DNA of 64,000 nucleotides from contig JAKACW010000010.1 of the NCBI GenBank assembly GCA_021821045.1, positions 1-64,000 on the forward strand, read 5' to 3'. How positions within the stretch are numbered: position 1 is the stretch's first letter; every line of letters starts with the position of its first letter. The position numbers were made by a program, and so were the translations under genes. Below, one piece after another: positions 29,329 to 37,811 of the stretch. This stretch comes from Pseudomonadota bacterium (GTDB lineage: Bacteria; Pseudomonadota; Gammaproteobacteria; JAADHS01). Below the pieces are notes generated by a model. The model was not told where the DNA came from. It saw only the letters and a program-made list of their open reading frames with translations, and ran no database searches.

Positions 29329-29350
29329 TGGCCCGCCTTACCGTCGAAAC

Positions 29351-29380
29351 GAAAAGGGCCACTGAAACGTGGCCCTTTTC
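29351..29380. terminator. Bidirectional intrinsic terminator
   Basis: Perfect 12-base stem GAAAAGGGCCAC / GTGGCCCTTTTC with a six-base loop. The A- and T-rich stem ends supply U tracts in both directions, so it can end both the ABC exporter transcript (plus) and the microprotein transcript (minus). Confidence 0.85.
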
Positions 29381-29437
29381 GTTGCCGGTCCCGAGATAAC
29401 TCAGTACCCGCTCTTCTCTACCGCTCAACCTTGCAGC

Positions 29438-29605
29438 TTACATCCCGCCGCCATGTCCGCCGGCCGGGGGCGCCGGAGCGGGCGCCGGTCCAGGTGCGGG
29501 CGCAGGGGCCGGTGCAGGAGCTGGAGCTGGAGCGGGCGCCGGAGCGGGTCCAGGAGCGGGCGCCGGTGCTGCGCCGTGCCCCATTCCACCACCATGTCCA
29601 CCCAT
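29438..29605 (-). CDS. Ala-Pro repeat microprotein with Gly-His-Met ends (55 aa)
   Basis: A 56-codon gene. The ATG at 29605 is preceded by a textbook AAAGGAG (29612-29618) with six-base spacing. The peptide begins MGGHGGGMGHG, has a core of alternating Ala and Pro (residues about 12-48, 18 prolines, Gly at 19 and 39), and ends GGHGGGM, so the two ends nearly mirror each other. Pro codons are mixed (CCG, CCC, CCT, CCA), arguing for selection on the protein rather than recent slippage. No signal peptide. A prolyl-hydroxylase-type gene is divergent 193 bases away; this peptide is its obvious candidate substrate. The His/Met/Gly ends could bind copper. I know of no described family. The function is inferred. 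Confidence 0.75.
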   Translation of the reverse strand: MGGHGGGMGHGAAPAPAPGPAPAPAPAPAPAPAPAPAPGPAPAPAPPAGGHGGGM

Positions 29606-29798
29606 GTCGTTCTCCTTTGTACTGTGACTTCACTTGAATCGAGACTTTCGACTTGAAGGCCCGAGAATAGACTGAAGGGCACAGCCCCTTGTATTGGGTA
29701 TTTTACCTACTGCAGGAGACCACGTATGCGCTGCGTTGACAACGCTGCGCCGATTTGGATACCGTCCAACTCTAAAACTACATTTTCGGCTGCAACAA

Positions 29799-30602
29799 AT
29801 GACACAGACCTGGTTGGACCCAACCCCTGCCGCGACGGGACGCATTTCCGCGTCGCCCGTCCTGGATGAAACAGGGAATACACCGGACATCGCACTGCGA
29901 GACAACGAGCCATGTCTGTGCGGCAGCGGCGACCCGTTCGAAGTCTGCTGCGCTTCCCGCGAATCGCCGCGCAAGCCTCCGTACGGCGTGTTCGTGTTCG
30001 AGAACTATCTGGACGCCGACAGCGCCCGCGAATGGATTGAATACGCCGAGCAGTGCCGCAGACAGCGCCTGTTGGTGATCGATCAGAATGCATCCACGCC
30101 CGACAACATTGTCAAGGTCGAGGACAGCCGCCGCGTGGCAGAGCGGGTCGATCTTGGGACCCGACACGCGCAACTTAACGAGTTAGTGGCAAAGGCGTAC
30201 GTGGATCTGGCCGACCGCTGCTTTGGCCGGTCATTGGATTGGTACGAAACACCGGAGCTGATGCGCTATTCCCCCGGCGGCTTCTACGTCAAGCATGCCG
30301 ATAGCCAGAACTTCAATCCGTCGACACAAAGCTGGACCAAGGTCATCGACCGCGATTTGAGTTTGCTGATCTATCTCAACGACGATTTCGAGGGCGGCGC
30401 GCTGCATTTCAACCGCTTCAACTATCGCTTGCAGCCCAAAGCGGGCATGGCGGTGATCTTCCCGTCGGACAGTCGCTACGTTCATACCGCGGAAACGGTC
30501 ACACGAGGCACACGCTACGCCGTGGTAAGTTGGGCCTCGGTGCGCGGGGTGCCCAAGATTGCCGCAAAACCGCCCGTACCGGCGATATTCCTCGACCGCT
30601 GA
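29799..30602 (+). CDS. 2-oxoglutarate/Fe(II) oxygenase of the prolyl 4-hydroxylase type with SEC-C motif
   Basis: About 267 residues from the ATG at 29799; the frame extends to 29694 without a better start. A SEC-C-like zinc motif, EPCLCGSGDPFEVCC, is at about residues 37-51. The P4Hc double-stranded beta-helix follows, with iron ligands in GGFYVKHADSQNF (HxD) and SRYVHTAE (distal His), and the 2-oxoglutarate-binding basic residue in RGTRYAVVSW. LSLLIYLNDDFEGGALHF is the typical central strand. The catalytic set is complete, so hydroxylation of prolyl (or similar) residues is likely. Divergent from the Pro-rich microprotein and convergent with a SEC-C sulfotransferase-like gene. Confidence 0.85.
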   Translation: MTQTWLDPTPAATGRISASPVLDETGNTPDIALRDNEPCLCGSGDPFEVCCASRESPRKPPYGVFVFENYLDADSAREWIEYAEQCRRQRLLVIDQNASTPDNIVKVEDSRRVAERVDLGTRHAQLNELVAKAYVDLADRCFGRSLDWYETPELMRYSPGGFYVKHADSQNFNPSTQSWTKVIDRDLSLLIYLNDDFEGGALHFNRFNYRLQPKAGMAVIFPSDSRYVHTAETVTRGTRYAVVSWASVRGVPKIAAKPPVPAIFLDR

Positions 30603-30612
30603 CCGCTTGACC

Positions 30613-30790
30613 GTGGGAGCGGATCATTCCGCGATAAGCCGAGCGATGGCGATAAAGCCGGCGAAGAATCGCGGTAGGAAACCGCTCCCACAATGAGAAG
30701 CCTGGTTCGTTGTGGGAGCGGATTATTCCGCGATGAGTCGGGCTACGGCGCCAAGTTCGGCGAAGAATCGCGGTACAAAACCGCTCCCAC
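30613..30790. repeat. Two REP pairs (four copies)
   Basis: Direct 30613-30635, inverted 30668-30691, direct 30712-30734, inverted 30767-30790. Direct copies have GCGGA/TCCGC stems and inverted ones GCGGT/ACCGC, as in the 424-597 array. The inner spacers are also alike (about 32 bases each). They fill the gap between two convergent genes, where they may end transcription. Confidence 0.9.
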
Positions 30791-30821
30791 ACATGTTAAT
30801 TCAGCGCTCTAGCGGAGCGCA

Positions 30822-32006
30822 TCATCTCGCGTTTAACGCCCCCGGCAGACCGGGCTCCGGATACTCAATCCCTAACAGCCCACGGGCAAATATCTCCGCC
30901 GCGTCAATCTCGCGAGCAAACCTTGCGCGAAGCTTGGCCACGTCTTGTTCGCGCTGCTGGGGACTATATTTGAACTCCGTGTTTTTCGAATACACGCCGA
31001 ACAGTTCGGCGACAACCGCGTCCCGATCCACACCCGGCAGCGGCGCCAAATCGAAGAATTTGCCGCACGCCGCCACCATCGTCGTCGGCGCACGCAGCAT
31101 GCGATTGAAATCGAGACAGCGCACCCGCGTCGGTGCGAATTCGAACGCATCTAAATACAACGCGAGGTTGTAGGCCCAATACACCGCCGCCATCTCCGCA
31201 TAAAGCTGAACACCCAAGTCAAATCGCGCGCCGTCGTTGAACCGTTGTGCCGCCGCGTCGCGGACCATGCGAAAGCGATCGCGCAGCCACGGCCGGCGGT
31301 TTTCCGCTTTGAGGCAAGCAGCAACGAACTCATCCAAAGGCGTGTACATGAACAAAATCGGCACGTCCGCCTGCCAGCGCAGCACGGGCAGCATCAGCTC
31401 GTTGGCATAGTCGTTGGCCTTCACCACCGCCGATTGAGTTTCACTGTAGCGGCGCGACAGCAAGCGCATTGCCCGACCCAGCCATACGACGCGCTCCTCG
31501 TCGGAGACGTCCGCCGAGCGTCCATAAAACATGACGTTGCCCAAAATGTCCGGTTCGCGCAGCGGCACGCTATCGAATGCGCCCGCCAACGCTTGCGACA
31601 TTAACGTCGAACCGCAGAATGCGGTGTGAAATATCATTGGCGTGGGCCGCCACTGCGTTGCATCGGCGATGGCCGCGAACCGCGGCAAATCCATGTCGAG
31701 CGCATACTTGCCGATGATGCGCGCCGAATCGAGAAACACGCTGTCCCGATACCACCGAGGCGACATTTTCACGAGTCGAGCAGACGCGGCGGCGAAATCG
31801 ATCCGGACGGGAAAGATGTCGGGAACAGAATCCATAGCATCCAAACTGGCGACGACGGACGGCGTCAGCTGCCCAACCTCGATCGCCCCTCCGGCCGTCA
31901 CCCGCCCCCGACTCGCCGGGACGTCAGTTTCCGCCGCGCCGCAACAAACCGCATAGGTCAGCCCGCTCCCGCAAGGACAGTCCGAGTGTGCCGCGATGGA
32001 TTCCAT
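30822..32006 (-). CDS. Sulfotransferase-like P-loop protein with N-terminal SEC-C motif
   Basis: 394 residues. The N-terminus has a SEC-C zinc motif, DCPCGSGLTYAVCCG (about residues 9-23), the same kind as in the neighbouring oxygenase. Later, TPMIFHTAFCGSTLMSQALAG resembles the 5'-phosphosulfate-binding loop of PAPS-dependent sulfotransferases (a G-S-T-L core), and VPILFMYTPLDEFVAACLKAE could be the 3'-phosphate region. The fold beyond this is only loosely recognisable. If it is a sulfotransferase, a hydroxylated peptide would be a fitting acceptor. Convergent with the oxygenase, and transcribed away from the B12 riboswitch on the other strand. Confidence 0.6.
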   Translation of the reverse strand: MESIAAHSDCPCGSGLTYAVCCGAAETDVPASRGRVTAGGAIEVGQLTPSVVASLDAMDSVPDIFPVRIDFAAASARLVKMSPRWYRDSVFLDSARIIGKYALDMDLPRFAAIADATQWRPTPMIFHTAFCGSTLMSQALAGAFDSVPLREPDILGNVMFYGRSADVSDEERVVWLGRAMRLLSRRYSETQSAVVKANDYANELMLPVLRWQADVPILFMYTPLDEFVAACLKAENRRPWLRDRFRMVRDAAAQRFNDGARFDLGVQLYAEMAAVYWAYNLALYLDAFEFAPTRVRCLDFNRMLRAPTTMVAACGKFFDLAPLPGVDRDAVVAELFGVYSKNTEFKYSPQQREQDVAKLRARFAREIDAAEIFARGLLGIEYPEPGLPGALNAR

Positions 32007-32099
32007 GGCCGCAGTTTAGCGCGGAGTACTGGATCGCGCGACGTCGCCGGCGCGGCTTGACTTGCCCACCCGTCCCCATTACAGTTGGCCCGCGATGTA

Positions 32100-32314
32100 A
32101 ACATGTTGTTCGGGTGTTCCCTGGTGAAAACCACGGAATGAAACGGGAAGTCGGTGCGCGCGCCTTAGGGCCGCAATCCCGACGCTGCCCCCGCAACGGT
32201 AAACGAGTGAAGATTTATCAGCACGCCACTGTTCGCACGCGAATGGGAAGGCGATAAATCGGCGATTGATTTTACAGAAATATCAAACGCCTCTCGTGAG
32301 CCCGGAGACCGGCC
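32100..32314 (+). ncRNA. Cobalamin (B12) riboswitch
   Basis: The conserved core is clear: CGGGAAGTCGGTGCG at 32144, GACGCTGCCCCCGCAACGGT (the B12 box region, 32181-32200), GCCACTG at 32225, GGGAAGGCG at 32245, and GAGCCCGGAGACCGGCC at 32298-32314. It precedes the BtuB-type receptor gene by about 195 bases and should lower its expression when adenosylcobalamin is plentiful. Confidence 0.92.
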
Positions 32315-32349
32315 CAAACGACACGGAGCCCGTGACGCATTGGCATGCT

Positions 32350-32509: not shown

Positions 32510-34444
32510 ATGCCCGTCAGAAGTCGTCCCATTCAGTGGGGACTCGCCGCTGTTTCGTTGTTCAACGTACTTTCCATTGCCCAAGCCCAAGATGCCGAGG
32601 TCTTCATCACGGCGCAGCGTTTCGCGGCCAGCATCGATACCGCGCCGGTCAACGTGACCGTGCTGTCGGAAAATGACATCGCCAAGAGCGGCGCGTCCAA
32701 TGTGGCGCAACTGTTAAGCACCGAAGCGGGTATTCATGTGCGCGATCTGTTCGGCGTCGGCGGCGCGAAAGCGTCGGTCGACATGGGCGGATTTGGCGCG
32801 ACCGGCAGTCAAAACGCCCTGATCCTGCTCAATGGACGGCGCTTGAACGATGTCGATGTGAGCGGCGCCAATTTGTCGCTGATCGCGCTGAATAACGTGG
32901 CCCGCGTGGAAATCATCCATGGCAGCGGCACCGTACTTTACGGTGATAACGCGGTCGGCGGCGTCATCAACATCGTCACCAAGAGCGGCCTGGACAGCAG
33001 CGCCTCTTCCGCCAGCATCACGGCCGGTTCTTTCAACACGCTGCGAGGCGAGCTGTTGGCGCGCGGCAAACGCGGCGATGACGGCTGGTTGGTCAGCGCC
33101 GACCTACACGGCAGCGACGGCTATCGCGACAACAGCGGGTTCGAAAACGGCGCTCTCGCCGGCGAGTGGACCCGATTGAACGGCGAGAATCTATGGGGCG
33201 CGCGCTTCGACGCCGGCAAGGAAGACTTGGAACTGCCCGGCGCACTCAACGAGCCCGAGTATGAAACCGATCCGACGACATCCAGCACGTCGGGCATTGA
33301 ACACGCGAACCAGGATCAGTTCAGCGTCGAGGGCTTCCTCAATGGCCCGATGGTTGCCGGTGAGTTGGCCTATCGCCAGAAGGATCAGCACGCCAAGCTG
33401 TTCGGCACCACCGACGCCACGCTCAAAACGTTGTCCTTTACGCCGCGAGCCCGGCGCACTTACGGCAAGCATCAACTCATCGCCGGCATCGATCTTTACC
33501 GCAGCGAGCTGGAAACCAAAGCCGACTTCACCACCTCGATCAACACCAGCGCTGCGGATCGGGATTCGTATGGCCTCTACTTGAGCGACACCGTATCGCT
33601 CTCCCCCAACATTCAGGTGCAATTGGGCTGGCGTAGCCAGCGGGTCAGCCTCGATGTTCGCAATCGTGACGAGCTGACGGGCACGGTGACGCCGAGCAAT
33701 AGAGCCGATGACCTCGAAGGCTGGGATGTAACGCTTAACTTCACCCCAAACAAACAGTTGAGCGGCTATGTGCGGGCAGCGCGCAGCTTCCGCGCCCCCG
33801 TGCTGGATGAAATCTGGAGTTATTTCGGCGGAGCCATCACATTGATCGACCCGCAAAAAGGCGATCACTGGGAGGCGGGCGCGCGTTATAACTGGACAGC
33901 CACCACGACGTTCGATCTGACTCTGGCCCGCATCGATAACGAGCGCGAGATCGGTTTCGATCTCGATACGTTCAGCAACGTCAATTTGGATCCGACGCGT
34001 CACGACAACGCGCGGCTCGGCCTGACCACGCAGGTTACCGATCGTACACGAGTGCGCGCATCGTACAGCTATCAAGACGCAACCTTCCGCAGCGGCACCT
34101 ATGCCGGAAAAGCGGTGCCGGAAGTGCCCGAATCCCGCGCTGCCCTCAATATCGATCATACGCTGCAAGACAAATGGGTTGCCATTTTCGGCGTGAATTA
34201 CGTCGGCAAGCGCCATTTCGGCAACGACTTCGCCAACGTCGGCAAGCAGATGTCCGACTACACTTGGGTAACGGCCGCGCTGGACGGGCAAGAGGGACCG
34301 TGGCACATGCGGTTGTCCATCGACAATCTGTTCGACGAGGACGCCGCGGATCAAGGCTTCTACAACAGCTTCGCCGCCAATCCCTACTACTACTATCCAT
34401 TGCCCGAGCGCAGCTACGCGTTGCGCGTGACGCGAGACTGGTGA
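32510..34444 (+). CDS. btuB: TonB-dependent outer-membrane cobalamin receptor (BtuB-type)
   Basis: 644 residues. AAGGA lies eight bases before the ATG; the signal peptide ends at SIAQAQ, followed by a TonB-box-like DAEVFITAQRF. Plug domain: VNVTVLSENDIAKSGASNVAQLL ... NALILLNGRRLNDVDVSGANLSLI ... VARVEIIHGSGTVLYGDNAVGGVINIVTK. A 22-strand barrel follows, ending with the receptor-like LRVTRDW (aromatic last residue for BAM). Control by the upstream B12 riboswitch supports cobalamin or a relative as the substrate. Its stop overlaps the tonB start (TGATG). Confidence 0.9.
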   Translation: MPVRSRPIQWGLAAVSLFNVLSIAQAQDAEVFITAQRFAASIDTAPVNVTVLSENDIAKSGASNVAQLLSTEAGIHVRDLFGVGGAKASVDMGGFGATGSQNALILLNGRRLNDVDVSGANLSLIALNNVARVEIIHGSGTVLYGDNAVGGVINIVTKSGLDSSASSASITAGSFNTLRGELLARGKRGDDGWLVSADLHGSDGYRDNSGFENGALAGEWTRLNGENLWGARFDAGKEDLELPGALNEPEYETDPTTSSTSGIEHANQDQFSVEGFLNGPMVAGELAYRQKDQHAKLFGTTDATLKTLSFTPRARRTYGKHQLIAGIDLYRSELETKADFTTSINTSAADRDSYGLYLSDTVSLSPNIQVQLGWRSQRVSLDVRNRDELTGTVTPSNRADDLEGWDVTLNFTPNKQLSGYVRAARSFRAPVLDEIWSYFGGAITLIDPQKGDHWEAGARYNWTATTTFDLTLARIDNEREIGFDLDTFSNVNLDPTRHDNARLGLTTQVTDRTRVRASYSYQDATFRSGTYAGKAVPEVPESRAALNIDHTLQDKWVAIFGVNYVGKRHFGNDFANVGKQMSDYTWVTAALDGQEGPWHMRLSIDNLFDEDAADQGFYNSFAANPYYYYPLPERSYALRVTRDW

Positions 34445-35569: not shown

Positions 35570-37531
35570 TCACAAATCTCGGGCCAAACGTATACCGAAA
35601 GCATGTGAAATGAAACTCTCGAGTTCCCACGTCCGTTTGGCTGAGCGCACGCTAATGGGGGTGTTGTCCCACGTACCGCCGCGCACCACGTGGCGATTGC
35701 AATCGCCCCCATCGGCGTCCAACCACGCCGACCCATCGACCGGAGCGTTCTGGTAATTTTCATGCCAACAGTCCGCAGTCCATTCCATCACATTGCCCAG
35801 CATGTCATAGAGATAGAAAGCGTTAGCCCCATAACTACCCACTTTCGCGGTACCGTATCCGACACCATCGTCACAATTGTGCGCGCTCGAACTCGGATTA
35901 TTGACGTCCTTAACGTTCGCATACGTACAGGCCCGATCAGGGTTATTTCCCCAAAAGCGGGCCGAAGTGGATCCGGCGCGGGCAGCATATTCCCACTCCG
36001 CTTCCGTCGGTAACCGATACACTTTCCCGGTTTGTTCGTTTAGCCACGAAATATATTGTTGTGCGTCATTCCAACTGATACACGTCACGGGGGACTGGGG
36101 CGTCTGCGCGAAATCGGGATCGCGCCAATCCTTGTTCAGCCGAATGGCCCACACGGGCGGCGTTCCCCTGATTCTGCAGCCGAGACCTCCTTCGGCATCG
36201 GTCTCGTACGCCGTTGCGTTGACAAATCTTTCGAAGTCGCCAACGGTTAACTCGAACTGACTCAACGCGAACGATCTCTTGATCGTTACGGGGTGCTGCG
36301 GTTCTTCACCGGCTTCGTGACCACCCTCGTCGACGGTTGAACCCATCAAAAACCGACCCGGCGGCAACGCGACCATTTTGGGCCCCAGCGAACTATCCCC
36401 GCTCAACACATCCTGAAAAACAGTAAACTCACCGGCTACGATCACAACCTGCAAGGATTCCACGTCGCTGGCACCCCGCCCGTCGGTCACGGTCAAAGTT
36501 ACGGTGTACGTCCCCGGCGCGAACGCATGGCCAACCTCCGGGCCCTCCGCTTCAGTACCATCGCCGAACGACCACCTGTAGCTGGTGAGGCTTCCATCGG
36601 GATCCTGAGAGTCGGTTCCGCTAAATTGTAGAATTTCGTTTGCCGGACCTTCGATGGGCCCATTTATGACTGCCGTAGGCGCACGGTTCGCGGGAATGGT
36701 CGAAAATGAAAAGCTATGCGGCTCAGGTAATGACGCTCTGTTGAATGCCTCCAGGCGTTCATCGATAGAGACGGTGTAACGAACACCTTCCCGCCACCCG
36801 CCATTTGATATTAACGTTGCCGTCAATCCATCGCTCGATAGCTCAACGCTGGCCCACTCTACGATGCCGGTGTCATCGCTCAACGTAAAAAATTGAGGCT
36901 GAAGGTTTTCGGGCAGTAAACGTTGCGAGAACTGCACTTGTATTTTACCTGTGGGATCGACATTTTCGGCGCCCGCGGCCGGATCGGATGAAACGACGCC
37001 CAGAACAAGTTCGGGCGGAGGCGAACTCCCTGGCGAGAGTGGCGGCTCGCACCAGGGGCTTCCATTGGAGACTTCCGTCAAATTGTCGATTTCATCCCCG
37101 TCACTATTCCAATTGCTTTTCAGTGCGTCGAAAGACGCCATCGCTGTGCCGCCACTTTGGACGACCACCAACGATGTGGTGCTTTGCGTCCCGACTCGAA
37201 CGCGATCCTCACCACCACAACCAACTGCGTAGTAATGAGTTAACCTCAATTGGTACTCGCCCGGTGGGAGCGATAAGCGACCGCGAACACGCGCGTTGCT
37301 CGCGTCATATCCTAAGTTTTCGAGCGGATGGACCCTGATTACGCGTCCTTCGTTATCGAGCACTTCGACTTCGATGGATAACTCGGTTCCGTTGCCAACG
37401 GAAACAGCCCTCGACATTGCTGGGGATAGGGGCACTTCAATTTCCGTGGCGCTCTCGGTCCCTGGCGAATCGCAACCCGCGAAAGCCAGCGACGCGCAAG
37501 CCGCCAAAAATCGGCGCCGGTTACATGGCAT
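35570..37531 (-). CDS. Exported SUMF1/FGE-sulfatase-domain lipoprotein with PKD domain
   Basis: About 653 residues from the ATG at 37531. The N-terminus MPCNRRRFLAACASLAFAGC combines a twin-arginine motif and a lipobox Cys. Order: beta-sandwich (about 30-130), a Big_5/Ig-like domain (about 180-290, ending HSFSFSTIP), a PKD domain (about 295-375; FSGTDSQDPDGSLTSYRWSFGDG), then a formylglycine-generating-enzyme-type domain (about 400-653): PGRFLMGSTVDEGGHEAGEEPQHPVT, LPTEAEWEYAARAG, MLGNVMEWTADCW, VVRGGTWDNTP. Copper-ligand cysteines of true FGE are not evident, so it is more likely a binding or structural SUMF1 domain, as seen near caspase-like proteins. Divergent from a caspase gene. Confidence 0.85.
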   Translation of the reverse strand: MPCNRRRFLAACASLAFAGCDSPGTESATEIEVPLSPAMSRAVSVGNGTELSIEVEVLDNEGRVIRVHPLENLGYDASNARVRGRLSLPPGEYQLRLTHYYAVGCGGEDRVRVGTQSTTSLVVVQSGGTAMASFDALKSNWNSDGDEIDNLTEVSNGSPWCEPPLSPGSSPPPELVLGVVSSDPAAGAENVDPTGKIQVQFSQRLLPENLQPQFFTLSDDTGIVEWASVELSSDGLTATLISNGGWREGVRYTVSIDERLEAFNRASLPEPHSFSFSTIPANRAPTAVINGPIEGPANEILQFSGTDSQDPDGSLTSYRWSFGDGTEAEGPEVGHAFAPGTYTVTLTVTDGRGASDVESLQVVIVAGEFTVFQDVLSGDSSLGPKMVALPPGRFLMGSTVDEGGHEAGEEPQHPVTIKRSFALSQFELTVGDFERFVNATAYETDAEGGLGCRIRGTPPVWAIRLNKDWRDPDFAQTPQSPVTCISWNDAQQYISWLNEQTGKVYRLPTEAEWEYAARAGSTSARFWGNNPDRACTYANVKDVNNPSSSAHNCDDGVGYGTAKVGSYGANAFYLYDMLGNVMEWTADCWHENYQNAPVDGSAWLDADGGDCNRHVVRGGTWDNTPISVRSAKRTWELESFISHAFGIRLARDL

Positions 37532-37811
37532 ATCTATTCTATCTCGGTCGTTGACGCACAAACGCATCGATCGTAACGCTGACATCTGTTGAGATCAAAA
37601 ATTACCATTATCATGTCGATTGTCAATGCACTGTCCGCCACCGGGGTCAACCGTTGCTGGCCCGTCAGGGATCGCCATGTAACACGCATAACTTTTTGCC
37701 GGTCGCAGACGAAATACGACGCAACGATCGGCCCGACGCCCTCGGCGCGACTCCGCGCCTTGTGACCGGCCGAAGATACGGCTATATCTTTAAATTTGGA
37801 GGGGGCGTTGC

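Follow-up and report, generated by a model that had tools for sequence, protein, structure and literature searches.

An oxygenase and a sulfotransferase-like (ST-like) protein encoded by two convergent genes of a gammaproteobacterium probably act together, since ST-like genes of this family are paired with 2OG oxygenase genes far above chance and often in the same convergent layout. The reading that we favor, by a modest margin over its denial, is that the two form a two-gene modification module in which the oxygenase would act first and the ST-like protein second. The locus would then be one instance of a pairing of sulfotransferase-fold and 2OG proteins that recurs in the phylum. A small Ala-Pro gene lies next to the pair, and we consider below whether it belongs to the same system.

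Gene arrangement and the oxygenase

The window, by which we mean the whole stretch of DNA analyzed, comprises 64,000 nucleotides (positions 1 to 64,000, forward strand) of contig JAKACW010000010.1 from a Pseudomonadota bacterium (assembly GCA_021821045.1; GTDB lineage Bacteria; Pseudomonadota; Gammaproteobacteria; JAADHS01). The original prediction described three genes here, and all three were confirmed in position and strand. A gene for a 55-aa Ala-Pro microprotein (29438 to 29605, minus strand) is divergent from the oxygenase gene (29799 to 30602, plus strand; 267 aa), and the ST-like gene (30822 to 32006, minus strand; 394 aa) is convergent with the latter.

The oxygenase matched the Pfam family 2OG-FeII_Oxy_3 (PF13640) at 1.1e-15, with a score of 58.8 bits against a cut-off of 27. 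Its HxD motif (H166 and D168) and distal H229, which make up the iron triad, and R239, at the place of the 2OG-binding Arg/Lys, are intact, and all are invariant with a homologue of 50% identity (L027). In the PDB, it most closely matches prolyl 3- and 4-hydroxylases. The protein is predicted to be a complete P4H-type 2OG-Fe(II) oxygenase, as had been proposed, and we infer its prolyl specificity by homology. In domain family, HxD...H...R site, and size it is like other prolyl 4-hydroxylase-type 2OG oxygenases of PF13640 (PPHD, Bacillus P4H, and PiuC/YbiX). Unlike those proteins, in which to our knowledge SEC-C is absent, it carries an N-terminal SEC-C motif. AlphaFold models of the oxygenase and the ST-like protein were unusable (mean pLDDT of 32 and 38).

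The original prediction came with a check set in advance, namely, whether homologous P4H genes lie beside a Pro-rich small gene. This was not so for the three nearest homologues (L027, L170, and L171), an outcome that goes against the original proposal as far as homologues exist. No Ala-Pro small gene and no ST-like gene was found in the flanks present, which for L027 extend only 1 kb on one side and for L170 are limited to a 4.3-kb contig. SEC-C is degraded in L027, absent from L170, and well formed at the N terminus of L171 (CPCGSGRRYKQCC), whose gene is surrounded by ordinary genes, with neither a peptide gene nor an ST-like gene among them. This oxygenase subfamily thus can function without either neighbor.

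Recurrence of the ST-like/2OG pairing

ST-like genes were sought in two sets of about 370 to 400 genomes. Of the 22 ST-like places (16 genomes), 14 had a 2OG oxygenase gene (PF13640 or PF05118) no more than 2 kb away, a count that takes in three weaker, partial family matches. The number of oxygenase genes per genome leads one to expect 0.19. The corresponding P value, about 3e-24, ignores shared descent among places that are not fully independent and is therefore indicative. The pair in the window falls within the same limit (<2 kb), with 289 bp between the matched domains. Three more places have a partner that this count missed: a TauD-family oxygenase at L133 and at L175 and, at L173, an Oxy_3 oxygenase unreported by the genome scan. 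A close partner is missing at L125, L128 (7 kb), L130 (4.8 kb), L172, and L178. In the reverse control, 80 loci with generic 2OG oxygenases were screened, and no ST-like gene was found at any of them; flanks of about 6 kb were covered for the majority of these loci.

The convergent, nearly abutting layout seen in the window also was found at L124, L129 (two pairs), L132, L173, and L179. The partners belong to four 2OG families (Oxy_3, Oxy_4, Asp_Arg_Hydrox, and TauD), which suggests that the link of the ST-like genes is with the chemistry of hydroxylation and not with any single enzyme. From viral and plasmid collections, the searches recovered only oxygenases of a generic kind and nothing related to the ST-like protein. 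A search of the open-access literature found no account of the pairing, which is weak evidence of absence. In the libraries and papers covered by these limited searches, the pairing appears to be undescribed.

Canonical TPR-sulfotransferases of the Sulfotransfer_3 family often occur in the same neighborhoods (L124, L132, and L133), as do TonB-dependent receptors (L132, L176, and L179). L124, L129, L132, and L133, which contain several TPR-Sulfotransfer_3 genes, multiple 2OG oxygenase genes, and, at some of these loci, TonB receptor genes, resemble larger modification gene clusters. At L129 (4943 to 5320) and L132 (10419 to 10811), both from one genus, a gene divergent to the 2OG/ST-like pair encodes a small EF-hand protein whose N terminus is signal-like, and a sigma-factor-like gene pair is likewise divergent to the 2OG/ST-like pair.

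The ST-like family and its phosphate-site motifs

No Pfam or NCBIfam model covers the ST-like family. In the window protein only SEC-C reaches a Pfam cut-off, and single members of the family score below the Pfam sulfotransferase cut-offs; the resemblance to sulfotransferases appears with a family profile. A nine-member profile gave six PDB matches, five of them named sulfotransferases. The best match, 2zq5 (1.9e-5), was deposited as uncharacterized and is a mycobacterial sulfotransferase. In an hhalign comparison with canonical TPR-sulfotransferases, the P-loops and 3'-phosphate strands were paired, at an E value of 0.0084 and a probability of only 4.8%. A remote homology to the sulfotransferase superfamily is moderately supported by these comparisons.

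Further inspection of the two phosphate sites set the family apart. The 5'-phosphate P-loop is mostly FHxxxCGST or CCST (AFCGSTL in the window), and the Lys/Arg before SGT is absent from 19 of the 20 aligned members, the window protein included. The motif corresponding to the 3'-phosphate motif RxP...S is typically LLYSxLxxFLxS (MYTPLDEFVAA in the window), and its Arg is missing from the same proportion of members (19/20). A divergent outgroup, L180, alone keeps both basic residues, with a HISRCGST P-loop and HRDP. Thus, the family is like PAPS-dependent sulfotransferases (PF13469/PF00685; 2zq5 and SULT1) in its profile matches and in the alignment of its P-loop and 3'-phosphate regions and unlike them in its FHxxxCGST, REP, VK, and AK motifs and in the replacement of the basic residues.

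In sulfotransferases, those residues hold PAPS, and their loss from nearly the whole family makes sulfation (+80 Da) doubtful. The phosphate site of the window protein deviates even from that of its own family (MYTPLDEFVAACL), and this protein might be inactive. The description "P-loop sulfotransferase-like," as originally given, is supported for the fold, in that the family profile matches PDB sulfotransferases. It overstates the protein where it implies a canonical P-loop and PAPS phosphate site, and the claim of sulfation is not supported.

SEC-C motifs on both enzymes

Both enzymes were predicted to carry an N-terminal SEC-C motif (PF02810), and both score above the Pfam cut-off of 20.4 bits. 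The motif lies at 29904 to 29954 on the plus strand in the oxygenase gene (CLCGSGDPFEVCC; 1.8e-5, 24.9 bits) and at 31938 to 31979 on the minus strand in the ST-like gene (CPCGSGLTYAVCC; 1.7e-5, 25.0 bits). The whole 4.5-Mb genome encodes five SEC-C motifs, two of which are those of the convergent pair. Random placement of five motifs among about 4000 genes would yield an adjacent pair with a probability of about 0.5%, and the presence of SEC-C on both neighbors is unlikely to be due to chance.

SEC-C is the metal-binding domain of SecA, which binds SecB, and near-identical domains are found in YecA and YchJ (PMC8076867). The two enzymes share the CxCGSGx(n)CC knuckle with these three proteins. 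They differ from them in being modifying-type enzymes, encoded by facing genes, with SEC-C at the N terminus of each. The motif had been put forward as a shared tag of the system. In the wider family this failed, because L171 is a SEC-C P4H without an ST-like neighbor and no other ST-like protein among the 20 aligned members has SEC-C.

The Ala-Pro microprotein

The microprotein (MGGHGGGMGHGAAPAPAPGP...PPAGGHGGGM) contains 18 Pro among its 55 residues. GGHGGGM at both ends, together with an internal GHG, gives it several His and Met residues. A strong Shine-Dalgarno region (TACAAAGGAGAACGAC; 29606 to 29621, minus strand) lies immediately 5' of the ATG, which the AAAGGAGAACGAC leader abuts. Reading the sequence directly confirmed these features as first described.

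All eight codons for Ala and Pro occur in the 17 Ala-Pro units of the microprotein. Compared with the modal unit, codon positions 1 and 2 show two changes in 68 sites, each turning Ala into Gly, and codon position 3 departs from the modal base at 22 of 34 sites (Fisher P = 9e-12). A concentration of change at the wobble position points to selection on the amino acid sequence, unlike what a neutral slipping repeat would give, and the amino acid sequence of the microprotein appears to be under selection. An origin of the ORF as a slipping DNA repeat was ruled out by this codon-position pattern. A Gly-Ala frame on the opposite strand has the same wobble pattern and contains no listed ORF of at least 40 aa with a start codon. 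Codon use in the microprotein gene differs from that in the adjoining genes, with GCT making up 40% of Ala codons versus 8%.

A search of 321 genomes of the class for the microprotein turned up no homologue; matches were confined to generic Ala-Pro linkers of larger proteins and contig-edge fragments. A scan of 398 phylum genomes for the end motif gave only isolated one-mismatch matches. No Ala-Pro gene was found beside the ST-like homologues. The microprotein as a conserved partner was ruled out by these searches (20 relatives, 321 class genomes, and the 398-genome end-motif scan), and the idea that other pairs have a conserved small gene on the divergent side of the oxygenase gene was rejected as well: the EF-hand protein, not an Ala-Pro protein, occupies that place at L129 and L132. 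With no homologue of the microprotein found in these genomes, and no Ala-Pro gene in the available flanks of the nearest P4H homologues, the three-gene system is not conserved, and the Ala-Pro trio is not supported as a family. Within the data at hand, the microprotein appears to be a real small protein specific to its lineage. Of the local candidates for a substrate it is the most economical, and it possibly is one, although it is tied to the enzyme pair solely by position and composition.

Proposed function and alternatives

In a two-gene module, the oxygenase most likely would hydroxylate a side chain of a protein or peptide, a prolyl side chain by homology, and the ST-like protein would then act on the hydroxylated product. 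Given the degenerate phosphate site of the ST-like protein, any group that it transfers could be something other than PAPS-derived sulfuryl. The SEC-C knuckles on the two enzymes may most simply be docking sites for a common partner. The pairing is one of gene proximity and should not be taken as proof of a common pathway. If it does reflect a pathway, it would point to a system in which bacterial proteins or peptides are hydroxylated and then modified, distributed over two or more groups of the phylum. Such a system would include an enzyme family unnamed in the libraries searched, and SEC-C would thereby gain a role beyond Sec, YecA, and YchJ.

The module is compatible with a microprotein that is not enzymatically modified at all and serves as a metal-binding or structural small protein. 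We regard this as plausible but less likely than not. The His and Met residues of the GGHGGGM ends and internal GHG would suit such a role, and the long Ala-Pro spacer is of a common linker type that also is seen in larger proteins. However, composition by itself is weak support, and there is no metal-related gene within the transcription unit of the microprotein.

Slightly less probable, and on the whole unlikely, is that the substrates of the SEC-C oxygenase are client proteins, nascent or bound to Sec, or components of the translation machinery and that the microprotein is an unrelated neighbor. In Pseudomonas putida, EF-Tu is a substrate of PPHD (PMC7864055). Given this precedent and the SecB binding of the SecA metal-binding domain, which is a SEC-C (PMC8076867), a client linked to Sec or to translation competes seriously with the Ala-Pro peptide. 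The L171 SEC-C P4H, set among ordinary genes, is consistent with such a client, but an ST-like neighbor with a SEC-C motif of its own is left unexplained.

It is improbable that the three genes are unrelated and adjoin by accident in a region through which REP-like repeats are scattered. In favor of an accident, the trio as a whole is not conserved, and the two enzyme genes are separated by a 219-bp gap holding two dispersed REP-like hairpins (30612 to 30794). Their palindrome core, GGAGCGGATNNNTCCGCGA, occurs in 17 copies within the window against 0.11 expected. The copies span 427 to 61506 (e.g., 30616, 30715, 32353, 35197/35241, and 54543/54587) and often form inverted pairs. Against an accident stand the strength of the ST-like/2OG pairing, the recurrence of the convergent layout elsewhere, and the SEC-C motif on both enzymes.

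The original proposal in full, hydroxylation of the microprotein by the P4H followed by its sulfation by the ST-like protein, with both enzymes recruited via SEC-C, fares a little worse still. In its favor are the position of the Pro-rich microprotein gene, divergent to the P4H gene, the signs of protein-level selection, and the general occurrence of the ST-like/2OG pairing. In addition, works cited in PMC12333218 characterized prolyl 4-hydroxylases of plants and a chlorella virus, the plant enzyme reportedly acting on proline-rich peptides, and this keeps the microprotein in play as a substrate. Weighing against the proposal, the trio occurs at no second locus, the peptide is without a homologue in about 320 class genomes, the P4H homologues lack an Ala-Pro gene, and the PAPS-binding Arg/Lys residues are lost. 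A small gene adjoining candidate modifying enzymes is reminiscent of RiPP pathways. Unlike in those pathways, no leader/core layout, protease, or dedicated exporter was identified, and the precursor is not conserved with the P4H or ST-like enzymes.

The boldest variant, in which a PAPS-independent sulfotransferase-fold family provides the second step after several unrelated 2OG families, transfers another group to (or processes) freshly hydroxylated proteins, and here is recruited by SEC-C and has acquired a dedicated Ala-Pro substrate, we consider the least likely of all.

Neighboring features

Between an ABC-transporter gene and the stop codon of the microprotein gene lies a terminator-like hairpin (29348 to 29383, either strand) with a perfect 15-bp stem and an A-tract/T-tract. 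Its fold z-scores were -5.3 on the plus strand and -5.0 on the minus strand, and none of 200 shuffles was as stable. Just past the ST-like gene, a cobalamin riboswitch (RF00174, 112 bits; 32095 to 32331) precedes the gene for a TonB-dependent receptor (32510 to 34444). The two are an ordinary start of a B12-uptake region, probably unrelated to the enzyme pair. Further along, at 35570 to 37585, one predicted protein has PKD and Ig-like domains followed by an FGE-sulfatase/PvdO-like domain.
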